This document shows positions 121 through 33,185 of a DNA stretch of 64,000 bases, one piece after another. Within the stretch, counting starts at the first letter, position 1; every line of letters begins with the position of its first letter. The stretch spans positions 1-64,000 of the forward strand of contig NZ_WEZT01000040.1 of assembly GCF_009863985.1 (NCBI RefSeq), written 5' to 3'. This stretch comes from Furfurilactobacillus milii. GTDB taxonomy: Bacteria; Bacillota; Bacilli; Lactobacillales; Lactobacillaceae. The position numbers were made by a program, and so were the translations under genes. The notes beneath the pieces are model-generated. The model searched no databases. It had not been told where the DNA came from and saw only the letters and a program-made list of their open reading frames with translations.

Positions 121-176
121 AAAAGTTGGGTAACAGTATCACCACGGGATGTGGCGGCGCTGTTACCCAACTTTTT
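121..176 (-). terminator. Rho-independent terminator of the LysR gene
   Basis: Sixteen-base arms, AAAGTTGGGTAACAG against CTGTTACCCAACTTT, enclose a loop of about 23 bases. On the minus strand the hairpin is followed by a T run. It begins at the stop codon of the LysR gene and separates it from the IS30 end. Confidence 0.8.
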
Positions 177-1696: not shown

Positions 1697-2488
1697 TTAA
1701 TTTAAATTGAGCCGCAACTGCATTGCTAAAGCGGCGAATGCTTCATCAGCTGTTGATGATATTCTGAAGTCTGCGAACTGTGTGAACCAGGTGGCATGGG
1801 GATTGATTTCGATAACATGTTGCGGCGAGCAATGGCGATAATATCCGTTTGACCCAGTCACAATTGTGAGGTCGCTTTGAGACAGCAATTCATCGGCCAA
1901 TTGATCGTTTAAGGGTACGCGCCATGCGCCATCGGTCAAACGTTGGCGTACATAAGCATTGGCTTGTTTAAGGTTGGGCGGTAAGGTACCACCGAGATGA
2001 CGGAATGCGGGTTCTGGGGACAAAAGGCCATGGCAAACGGGGCAACGTGGAATATCTGAATGCAGTGCCTGAAGATTAAAGACACGACCACATTGAAGAC
2101 AAAAGTTAACGTTAATGCTGCCCCAAACTTCAATTACATGATAGCTACCAGCGAGTTGGTGCAAGTGATCAACGTTGGTGGTGACAACGCCGTCAATGAG
2201 ATGTTGTTGTTCTAACTGAGCAATAATTCGGTGAGCTTTAGTGGGACCATATTTGTGAATCGGATCCAGCATTTCCCGATGAAAACGCTGATAAAAGGCG
2301 GCAGGGTCTTCTTCCAACCAAGTTTGGGAGAACAAACCAAACTGGTTGACGGCGGATTCCATGTCGGGAATATGGCTTGGCACAGAGATCCCAGCCCCAG
2401 TTAGGAATGTTGGGTGGTGAGCCGCAGTCAGTTGTCTTGCGAGTTGGTCGATTTGTCGATCAAATACTGTTTGTTCTGGTTCCAGCAT
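1697..2488 (-). CDS. Sir2-family (sirtuin-like) protein with altered active site
   Basis: About 263 residues with the sirtuin order of motifs: the NAD-binding GAGISVPSHIPD (usual GAGIS..SGIPDFR), TTNVDHLHQLAG (usual TQNID.LH..AG), and a four-cysteine zinc knot (CLQC and CPVC). The catalytic histidine, normally in an ELHG-type motif after the AG box, is replaced by tryptophan in VIEVWGSI. The downstream GTS motif reads TGSNGYY. Classical deacetylation therefore looks unlikely; NAD binding or ADP-ribosyl transfer remain possible. The ATG at 2488 has AAGGAAGG upstream and is preferred to the ATG at 2515. No macrodomain or lipoylation partner is adjacent. Confidence 0.8.
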   Translation of the reverse strand: MLEPEQTVFDRQIDQLARQLTAAHHPTFLTGAGISVPSHIPDMESAVNQFGLFSQTWLEEDPAAFYQRFHREMLDPIHKYGPTKAHRIIAQLEQQHLIDGVVTTNVDHLHQLAGSYHVIEVWGSINVNFCLQCGRVFNLQALHSDIPRCPVCHGLLSPEPAFRHLGGTLPPNLKQANAYVRQRLTDGAWRVPLNDQLADELLSQSDLTIVTGSNGYYRHCSPQHVIEINPHATWFTQFADFRISSTADEAFAALAMQLRLNLN

Positions 2489-2569: not shown

Positions 2570-2606
2570 AAAAAAATGATATTTACGTGCAAACGCAAAT
2601 ATCATT
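2570..2606 (-). terminator. Terminator after the DUF2252 gene
   Basis: AATGATATTT pairs with AAATATCATT, and a run of seven T follows on the minus strand. It lies between the DUF2252 gene and the downstream sirtuin-like gene. Confidence 0.75.
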
Positions 2607-2613
2607 AGCAACA

Positions 2614-3999
2614 TTATTTTGTTGTGTCGATTGGTGTCTGTTCTTTGGGGTGGTTTTTTAAGAAGATAGCGTAGTCCTTTTCCACTTGTGGAATATAAGC
2701 TTCGGCCCAATCTGTCATTGCCCGGTCAAATTTCTTAGAGTCACCGATATAACCGGCAATCATTGGACCAGTTGGTGTTTGACAATGATCTACTGCCAAC
2801 AAACGACCACACGATTCAGCATAGACGTGAAACTGGTCTTCATTTAGTGTGTCAAGGTCGACAGATGTTTTCATGTCTCTGAATTGGCGAACATAAAAAC
2901 TGTGCTTTTTACTTTGGAAATAACCTAAAAAAGGATCAGATGCGGATTGTAGAATTTTCTGGCTGTCAATAATTCGGCGGCCTTCGTTTTCCTCAAATGT
3001 TGAGGTCAGCGCCAGTTGACGTTCGGCACCAGTCTTTCTAGTTGGCAAAGCTTCCTTGATCTGTAATACAAGATGGCTGCCATCAATACTAGTGAGCAGA
3101 ACCAAATAACAACGTGAGCCAAAGCTACCGACACCCACACAGTGACGTGCGACATCAGTGACGTGATATTGCGATAATAACAATGCAATGTCGGTCCGCA
3201 CGGTGGAACGATAATCGGCAAGGTAATCGATAATATTACGCGTGACATCATCATTGGTGTGACGCGTAATTTTTGCGTTATCCACGAAACGTAAACCGGC
3301 GTCGGTCGTTTGCGTGAACTTTTTAACGACTTGTTCCGAGTTCCGTTTGCCAGCTTTATCCAAGAAGTATTGAATCATGTCGGCCGTTGGATCGCCTTCT
3401 GGAACAGCCCGAAGAATGCTGGCAACATCGTTTGCTGGATAGAAACGGTCAATTGTCGACCGTTTGATACTGGCTTCAATGCCCGCCCGATAACTTTTGG
3501 CCACGTTCCGTGTGATTTTATGAATCTTTTTATCTGTGTAACCATTCTCGCGGCCAGCTAAAATAACGCTCACTAACAGTCGTTTGACGTCGCGTTCCCA
3601 GGAGTTCACGCCAGCTTCATCGAAATCGTTCAAGTCAAACACTAATCGTCGTTCGGGAGAGGCGAAGAAGCCGAAATTTCCAAGGTGTGCATCGCCTGAA
3701 ATGATGACGGGAATGTGAGTACTAGCTTGGTGGTTGAGGTCAAACGCCATTAGCTCGGCAGTACCACGAAAGAACGTAAAAGCTGATACGCCCATTCGCC
3801 GATACCGTTCAGGCAGTAATTCAGGAACTAGCATATCTGAAATCCGCCGCATTAAGAGCGTTGGATCGCGTTGCGTTTGTTTGAATGTGCCGAGTGCATC
3901 AAAGGGGACCTTTTCACGTAATTTGTCGCCCATGTGCTCTAAGTCCGTTTGGCTGCTATTGACGATGATGTTATTGATGTCTAGACCGCGATTTGCCAT
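2614..3999 (-). CDS. DUF2252-family protein (kinase-fold-like, function unknown)
   Basis: About 461 residues matching DUF2252 proteins. The diagnostic motif is GDAHLGNFGFFASPERRLVFD followed by LNDFDEA, which resembles the HxD and DFD signatures of aminoglycoside phosphotransferase-like kinases (family knowledge). A second conserved block is GVGSFGSRCYLVLL with LQIKEA, resembling a glycine loop and ATP-binding lysine arranged in permuted order. The start is set at ATG 3999 with AGGAGG upstream; an in-frame ATG at 4086 lacks a ribosome site. Some members sit in stress or surface-modification loci. Substrate unknown. Confidence 0.8.
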   Translation of the reverse strand: MANRGLDINNIIVNSSQTDLEHMGDKLREKVPFDALGTFKQTQRDPTLLMRRISDMLVPELLPERYRRMGVSAFTFFRGTAELMAFDLNHQASTHIPVIISGDAHLGNFGFFASPERRLVFDLNDFDEAGVNSWERDVKRLLVSVILAGRENGYTDKKIHKITRNVAKSYRAGIEASIKRSTIDRFYPANDVASILRAVPEGDPTADMIQYFLDKAGKRNSEQVVKKFTQTTDAGLRFVDNAKITRHTNDDVTRNIIDYLADYRSTVRTDIALLLSQYHVTDVARHCVGVGSFGSRCYLVLLTSIDGSHLVLQIKEALPTRKTGAERQLALTSTFEENEGRRIIDSQKILQSASDPFLGYFQSKKHSFYVRQFRDMKTSVDLDTLNEDQFHVYAESCGRLLAVDHCQTPTGPMIAGYIGDSKKFDRAMTDWAEAYIPQVEKDYAIFLKNHPKEQTPIDTTK

Positions 4000-4091
4000 G
4001 AAAGTTAAGGATGCCTCCTGAGTAAATATTGGTTTGATTATACTCCGTGGTTCGGTATAGAAACAAACATTGCTAAATTTCGCCACTAAAA

Positions 4092-32461: not shown

Positions 32462-33103
32462 TCAGTAGCCGGCCGGTGAATCTGCCTCAGTGTTTGGCTG
32501 GAAGACAGCAATGCTGGCACGGTTATCACGGGTGGGATCGGTGATTAGCTTGATGACATAATCGCTGACGCTGGCGCGCGAAACAATGGTGTTTGTAACT
32601 GTAGTGCCACTGGCTGAGGTGTCATAGTCAATGGTTGTGTCATTGGTCATCCAGGCACAACGGATCAACGTATAATTCAAAGTTGAATTTTTGATCACGT
32701 CAGCCGCACGAACGGATACGGACATTAAGTCACCGACGGCCTGGTTTTCCCATTCTTTAAACACACCGGTTAGTTCGTTCTCGATACCGATGCCAGTAAT
32801 CCATAGTAATCTCGAGACGTGAGCTTTTTCCATAGCAGCAGTGATGACTTGTGCCTGCTGCTCATGTTCCGTGTCACCGCCAAGGGTTTCAAAGACAATG
32901 TCTTGATTAACCATGGCCCGATTTACCGCAACGGCGTCAGTTGCATCGCCCTCGATAACCGCTTCACGAGCAGGATCAGTAACTGTCAGGCGTGATGCGT
33001 TTCTTAAGAACAAGGTTAAGTGGGCATCCGTCTCGTTTAGCAAACGTTCGGTGATCTGGCGGCCGATCGTGCCGTTAGCCCCTAAAATTAAAACATTTTG
33101 CAT
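32462..33103 (-). CDS. NmrA-like NAD(P)-binding protein (atypical SDR)
   Basis: 213 residues with the Rossmann start VLILGANGTIGRQITERLL. The later LLWITGIGIENE and TLNYTLIRCAWMTND blocks match NAD(P)H-binding (PF13460-type) proteins. There is no catalytic YxxxK, so the role is probably redox sensing or epimerase-like; substrate unknown. ATG 33103 has GGGAGG upstream. Confidence 0.85.
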   Translation of the reverse strand: MQNVLILGANGTIGRQITERLLNETDAHLTLFLRNASRLTVTDPAREAVIEGDATDAVAVNRAMVNQDIVFETLGGDTEHEQQAQVITAAMEKAHVSRLLWITGIGIENELTGVFKEWENQAVGDLMSVSVRAADVIKNSTLNYTLIRCAWMTNDTTIDYDTSASGTTVTNTIVSRASVSDYVIKLITDPTRDNRASIAVFQPNTEADSPAGY

Positions 33104-33185
33104 CGTTAATACCTCCCAAACTCAGTTATTTCAACTAAGTGCCGTCAGTATAGAGCCTTCGAGTAACTGTAACGCAAATGAATGT

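Follow-up and report, generated by a model that had tools for sequence, protein, structure and literature searches.

A Lactobacillaceae lineage of sirtuins with tryptophan at the position of the catalytic histidine

Class M sirtuins (SirTM), in which the catalytic His is replaced by Gln, are described as ADP-ribosylating enzymes that need Asn118, Gln137 and Arg192, and part of the class is encoded in an extended operon with GcvH-L and LplA2 (passages of PMC4518038). In passages of a 2024 paper (PMC11490716), class M appear to be the sole sirtuins with transferase activity alone, by way of the His-to-Gln exchange. For human SIRT6, passages of PMC7498349 state that the R65A mutant retains mono-ADP-ribosyltransferase activity alone, that G60A loses transferase activity and that H133Y is enzymatically inactive; the passages of PMC5115890 on R65A report just the loss of deacetylase activity. 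An H116Y mutant of the Thermotoga Sir2 (TmSir2) was crystallised with NAD, according to the title of the PDB entry.

The sirtuin gene analysed here belongs to a Furfurilactobacillus contig (minus strand), of which 64,000 nucleotides (the window) were studied. Its longest ORF, from the first ATG (1697-2515, 272 aa), supplies the residue numbering used throughout. The ATG at 2488, from which the gene had been read in the original prediction, is predicted to be the likelier start: it is preceded by a good ribosome-binding sequence (AAGGAAGGTGAG), better than that of the 2515 start, and the ortholog L006 has Val at this place, as expected from a GTG start. The protein matched Pfam SIR2 (PF02146) with 74 bits (cut-off 24) and NCBIfam deacylase models with at most 115 bits, passing none of their cut-offs (221 to 395). 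Three scanned relatives from the lineage described below likewise stayed under every NCBIfam deacylase cut-off, whereas a second, canonical sirtuin of the same genome, which has the His, passed one of them (298.5 bits against 221).

All landmark motifs listed in the original prediction were located (GAGIS, TTNVDHLHQLAG and four zinc-knuckle cysteines; table 1), and its readings of SGIPDFR as SHIPDMES and of Trp at the catalytic His (EVWGS) were borne out: Trp131 aligned with TmSir2 H116 in the phmmer alignment, with which the family alignment agreed. The top PDB match in phmmer was 2h4h, the engineered TmSir2 H116Y mutant. An AlphaFold model (pLDDT 80.3, pTM 0.80, unreliable at residues 178-200) was superposed on TmSir2 with a Z of 26.7 over 219 residues at 2.1 A, and the protein as modelled is a Sir2 fold. 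SirTM (5A3A) was absent among the 50 structure-comparison matches listed and among the best 60 of 134 profile-search rows. An insertion of about two dozen residues (window 1916-1993, minus strand) was found only in the Furfurilactobacillus window-type orthologs.

Table 1. Coordinates of the features discussed, as window positions and residues of the 272-aa ORF.
Feature	Residues	Position	Strand	Remark
W-sirtuin gene		1697..2488	-	likely ATG at 2488, 263 aa; longest ORF to 2515, 272 aa
GAGIS, dinucleotide-binding loop	40-44	2384..2398	-	G, A, G, S invariant 39/39
SHIPDMES	47-54
M52 E53 replacing Phe Arg of SGIPDFR	52-53	2357..2362	-	Arg lost 38/39 family, kept 20/20 canonical
TTNVDHLHQLAG	112-123
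T113 N114 V115 D116, TQN to TTN	113-116	2168..2179	-	N114, D116 invariant 39/39
EVWGS	129-133			includes Trp131
Trp131 codon at catalytic His position (TmSir2 H116)	131	2123..2125	-	Trp 37/39, Gln 2/39
Zinc-knuckle cysteines	139, 142, 158, 161	2033..2101	-
Arg172 at TmSir2 F162 position, acyl-lysine tunnel	172	2000..2002	-	R 29, H 5, K 1 of 39
Low model confidence, inside insertion	178-200	1916..1984	-
G221 S222 N223 replacing GTS	221-223	1847..1855	-	family alignment
Terminator-like hairpin and T run between DUF2252 gene and sirtuin gene		2575..2606	-

We take the roles of TmSir2 F33, R34, Q98, S190 and F162 to be as named here, and the correspondence between SIRT6 and TmSir2 residue numbers, including R65 as the PDFR Arg, is likewise our assumption. 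Compared with a canonical deacylase, the window protein has E53 for the PDF/YR Arg, T113 for the TQN Gln and Trp131 for the HG His. The exchange at T113, the changes of the GTS Ser and the tunnel Phe, and the conservation of Trp throughout a lineage go beyond the original prediction. At the SIRT6 G60 position the window protein has a His.

The lineage, here called W-sirtuins, was defined from these sequences by Trp (or Gln) for His, T[TMF]N and a single clade, so that its members fit by construction. Residues were read in all 39 copies and compared with 20 canonical sirtuins of Lactobacillaceae. The catalytic His position was occupied by Trp in 37 copies, Gln in two and His in none, and by His in 20/20 canonical sirtuins. 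The TQN Gln was replaced by T (22), M (15) or F (2), the PDFR Arg was kept in 1/39, and the GTS Ser was replaced by N (18), K (8), R (8), Q (3) or T (2). At the TmSir2 F162 position, R (29), H (5), S (2), N (1), G (1) and K (1) were found, so that the Phe/Tyr of the acyl-lysine tunnel was exchanged for Arg, His or Lys in 35/39. Thus at least five active-site positions are altered across the lineage relative to canonical sirtuins. GAGxS and the C-terminal Asn were kept, as was the Asn/Asp pair in the nicotinamide pocket; invariant in 39/39 were T39, G40, A41, G42, S44, N114, D116, H119, N137, G221 and N238. Zinc cysteines were missing from some members.

For distribution and phylogeny, a family profile and alignment were built from 25 of the 39 copies. 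W-sirtuins were found in 35/397 Lactobacillaceae genomes (39 places, 11/40 genera; profile matches at 1e-62 or better), and in a phylum-wide sample in 1/398, the window's own genome only. An order-wide search (295 genomes) gave no match outside Lactobacillaceae better than 7.8e-59, and HG was present in 21/21 of the best non-Lactobacillaceae loci read. The tree comprised 57 rows: 26 W-sirtuins (window included), 9 of 23 SirTM-search loci, 11 of the 20 canonical sirtuins, 3 streptococcal loci (a presumed label for another Lactobacillales family) and 8 of 73 viral loci. The W-sirtuins formed one clade in IQ-TREE (support 100/99), divided into three clades A, B and C, with the Gln branch adjoining A. 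The two Gln copies (EIQGSYAINRC and EIQGSYAINKC, Gln as in class M) have no macrodomain nearby.

Three other Furfurilactobacillus genomes carry the same Trp, and a sequencing error or isolated mutation was therefore rejected as its source; relatives carry the species names F. rossiae and F. milii. When the four orthologs of this genus were compared in pairs, dN/dS was 0.068-0.092. The window gene is thus a member of a whole lineage and not a lone dead copy. One copy elsewhere (L035) has an in-frame TAG and is probably a pseudogene. A phage or plasmid origin was also rejected, on searches of viral contigs and, by tblastn, of phage and plasmid records. The viral-contig scan with the family alignment returned 73 loci with a sirtuin ORF in each and HG in 72, the remaining one (L197) having no readable motif in the stretch read; tblastn, with matches in 27 phage records and in 81 and 68 plasmid records that were compared by identity alone, gave nothing at 60% identity or above.

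The gene order in the window is LysR, GNAT (plus strand), sirtuin, DUF2252 and an M24 peptidase (methionine aminopeptidase-like), and the same order was found at the other three Furfurilactobacillus copies. A terminator-like hairpin and the convergence of the GNAT gene on the sirtuin gene suggest that the sirtuin is probably transcribed alone. The GNAT neighbour was rejected as a deacetylase partner since the genes converge and the pair occurs only in the 4 window-type loci. In all four, the DUF2252 gene (window 2614-4086, minus strand) lies immediately upstream of the sirtuin gene. No SDR or HIT gene was found beside the window copy, and the partners recurrent elsewhere are lost from the window's own clade; the SDR partner has its nearest relative in this genome on another contig (56%), and a second at window 32468-33109 (43%).

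Outside the window-type loci, W-sirtuin genes stand in tight same-strand groups. Neighbours were clustered with a home-made ORF caller on 38 stretches and the window. As the partner queries came from W-sirtuin loci, the sole informative comparison is that with the 20 canonical loci, several of which are near-identical orthologs: 33/39 W-sirtuin loci have one or more of SDR, HIT, CMD and the MarR/HesB pair, and none of these groups was found in the flanks of the 20 canonical sirtuins. Within approximately 1.5 kb there was an NAD(P)H-binding SDR (PF13460) at 9/39 loci, a HIT protein at 7/39, a CMD protein at 13/39 (all 13 of clade B), MerR at 11/39, DUF3737 at 5/39 and TetR at 4/39; MarR and a HesB-like protein were each found in 5 of 39, in both cases all 5 of clade C. 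By automatic gene calls, the CMD gene extends over the start of the sirtuin gene (gaps between -4 and -76). A peroxidase role of the CMD partner was rejected, as the AhpD-type CxxC is missing from the five clade-B copies read. The HIT partners read have the HxHxH motif, and in the HIT-linked genomes (7 genomes, 4 genera) the linked protein is one of just 2-5 genomic HIT matches; four of them (G004, G275, G378 and G241) have two HIT genes each, one just upstream of the sirtuin (one gene further in G378). The same kind of search gave 4 to 22 SDR matches per genome, and since SDRs are commoner than HIT proteins, single SDR adjacencies are weaker evidence. In one genome (G083, L036:1303-2721, minus strand), a 473-aa ORF fuses an NAD(P)H-binding SDR with a W-sirtuin, both domains over cut-off; a relative in G018 has TAA at the corresponding junction, and as the fusion occurs in one genome only, it may be a stop loss or an error.

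The explanation that we favour, with a probability of roughly 0.4, is that W-sirtuins are a non-deacylase variant, most likely NAD-cleaving or ADP-ribosylating and similar to SirTM in working. The catalytic His was replaced by Trp and kept so, and hence the proteins probably do something else with NAD. This reading is favoured because N114 and D116 are invariant in 39/39 while the His is replaced in 39/39 and the PDFR Arg lost in 38/39, and also because of the dN/dS of 0.07-0.09, the recurrent neighbours (33/39 against 0/20) and the Sir2 fold. Further support comes from SIRT6 R65A, which without the corresponding Arg retains the transferase alone, from class M sirtuins, which share TTN and are transferases despite the loss of the His, and from the small number of HIT matches in the HIT-linked genomes. 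Lysine deacylation would have been given up by the lineage: the Gln and His that contact the ribose are replaced, as are the PDFR Arg, the GTS Ser and the tunnel aromatic, which has mostly become Arg. The protein would still bind NAD or something closely related, in a rebuilt pocket that is probably shut to acyl-lysine. With least certainty, the Asn/Asp pair might still help to break the nicotinamide bond, and ADP-ribose might be handed, as by class M, to some target that is not acyl-lysine. The setting might, as tentatively, be small modules that respond to stress and contain an NAD(P)H-binding SDR, HIT hydrolase or CMD protein under putative regulators of the TetR, MerR or MarR type, in which the HIT protein might reverse the modification as the macrodomain does for SirTM. 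Against NAD cleavage or ADP-ribosylation speak the His at the SIRT6 G60 position of the window protein, given that G60A loses transferase activity, the changed GTS Ser, with which the ligand may be something other than NAD bound in the usual way, the lack of a macrodomain partner and the absence of an SDR or HIT neighbour at the window copy. A more specific version is doubtful: that W-sirtuins form a second, independently evolved non-deacylase class, namely ADP-ribosyltransferases of lactobacilli redox-stress modules, with a HIT hydrolase or NAD(P)H-binding SDR in place of the macrodomain as the pair and Trp131-Arg172 in place of SirTM Gln137-Arg192.

Nearly as likely as NAD cleavage or ADP-ribosylation is that W-sirtuins are regulatory pseudoenzymes, which would bind NAD(H) or NADP(H) without turnover, with the Trp stacking on the ligand, and signal the redox state to an SDR or regulator nearby. 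Trp is fixed in 37/39, and the inactivity of SIRT6 H133Y together with the crystallisation of TmSir2 H116Y with NAD suggests that an aromatic residue may mean binding without turnover. The GTS Ser has become N, K or R in 34/39. NAD(P)H-binding SDRs, some of which are redox sensors, and transcription regulators are among the neighbours. However, the Asn and Asp of the nicotinamide pocket are invariant, and the HIT hydrolase neighbours suggest nucleotide chemistry.

It is improbable that W-sirtuins are themselves class M members in which Gln was swapped for Trp and the macrodomain lost. TTN is shared with class M and Gln occurs in 2/39; constraining W-sirtuins and SirTM together cost 0.97 log units (p-AU 0.383), so that, by the tree alone, the two may be kin, even sister groups. 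However, the two stood as separate, starred clades, the nine SirTM on a branch of 6.28 changes per column. In hhalign the W-sirtuin profile scored 320 to canonical, 365 to viral and 318 to streptococcal profiles, all canonical in type, against 71 to SirTM, for which canonical, streptococcal and viral profiles gave 43, 53 and 80; this comparison speaks for a derivation of W-sirtuins from canonical sirtuins. The comparison with macrodomain-linked SirTM suggested in the original prediction gave no support for such a link, W-sirtuins scoring no better to the SirTM profile than canonical-type sirtuins do. No macrodomain was found in the window's own genome, and where carrier genomes encode one (16 of 34), it is not near the sirtuin. 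When flanks of approximately 1.5 kb on each side of SirTM were compared, none of their genes matched near W-sirtuin copies except ArsR-like regulators, and neither GcvH-L nor LplA2 was found there. SirTM identity was rejected on these two grounds and on the absence of QG, the window protein having WG and only L037 and L045 a Gln, with the caveat that a common clade is not rejected by the AU test. A second His-less, class-M-like family was seen in one Lactobacillaceae genus (L115-L122), adjoining a YetF-like membrane gene and an exonuclease-like gene; six members read have a degenerate GAG loop (TAGNGFAQ or TAGNGMAK), TST or TSA for TTN and Phe for Gln (NVFGDW or similar).

That W-sirtuins are ordinary deacylases with another residue as base is hardly probable: H119 is invariant in 39/39 and the fold is close to that of TmSir2, but the tunnel aromatic is basic in 35/39, Gln, Arg and His are all lost, and a canonical sirtuin is present in the same genome. 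As improbable is a decaying or purely structural remnant, as the L035 stop and the loss of zinc cysteines in some members might suggest, against which stand the low dN/dS, the residues invariant despite 25-50% identity and the conserved operons. Of the original proposal of an NAD sensor, ADP-ribosyl transferase or dead enzyme, the departure from an ordinary deacetylase thus stood, while a dead enzyme in the sense of decay was contradicted by the Trp in 37/39, the dN/dS and the operon conservation.

No paper on sirtuins with Trp at the catalytic His was found in the open-access literature, and the branch is apparently an undescribed sirtuin variant. Its genes score as Sir2 family yet should not be annotated as deacylases. 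If W-sirtuins stand beside class M as a second lineage, with another residue fixed in place of the His, other operon partners and food-associated hosts, one could ask what becomes of a sirtuin that has lost its general base and whether NAD-linked protein modification is common in the redox control of lactobacilli.

In comparison with known systems, W-sirtuins share with TmSir2 and related bacterial deacylases the fold, GAGxS, N99, D101, the zinc Cys4 and N214 (TmSir2 numbering), whereas TmSir2 F33, R34, Q98, H116, S190 and F162 are all replaced. With SirTM (PDB 5A3A-C; passages of PMC4518038) they share the replaced His, TTN and a link to redox genes, and, in sequences compared by eye, an Arg that follows the zinc knuckle in the same stretch, near the tunnel region. 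They differ from SirTM in having Trp and not Gln, no SirTM motifs, a separate clade in the unconstrained tree, and no linked macrodomain, GcvH-L or LplA2 at their loci. The PDFR Arg is lost as in human SIRT6 R65A, which keeps His133 (passages of PMC7498349), whereas W-sirtuins lose both. Matches of the window sirtuin, scanned alone, to antiphage Sir2 models in PADLOC were short and weak (best 6.9e-06 over 30 residues); W-sirtuins, unlike antiphage Sir2, carry a zinc knuckle, and their ORF encodes no effector domain. FAM118B differs in having a His near the ribose (passages of PMC12700824). Antiphage Sir2 and SIR2_2 NADases (same passages) nonetheless resemble the W-sirtuins proposed here in that a Sir2 core is put to a non-deacylase use.
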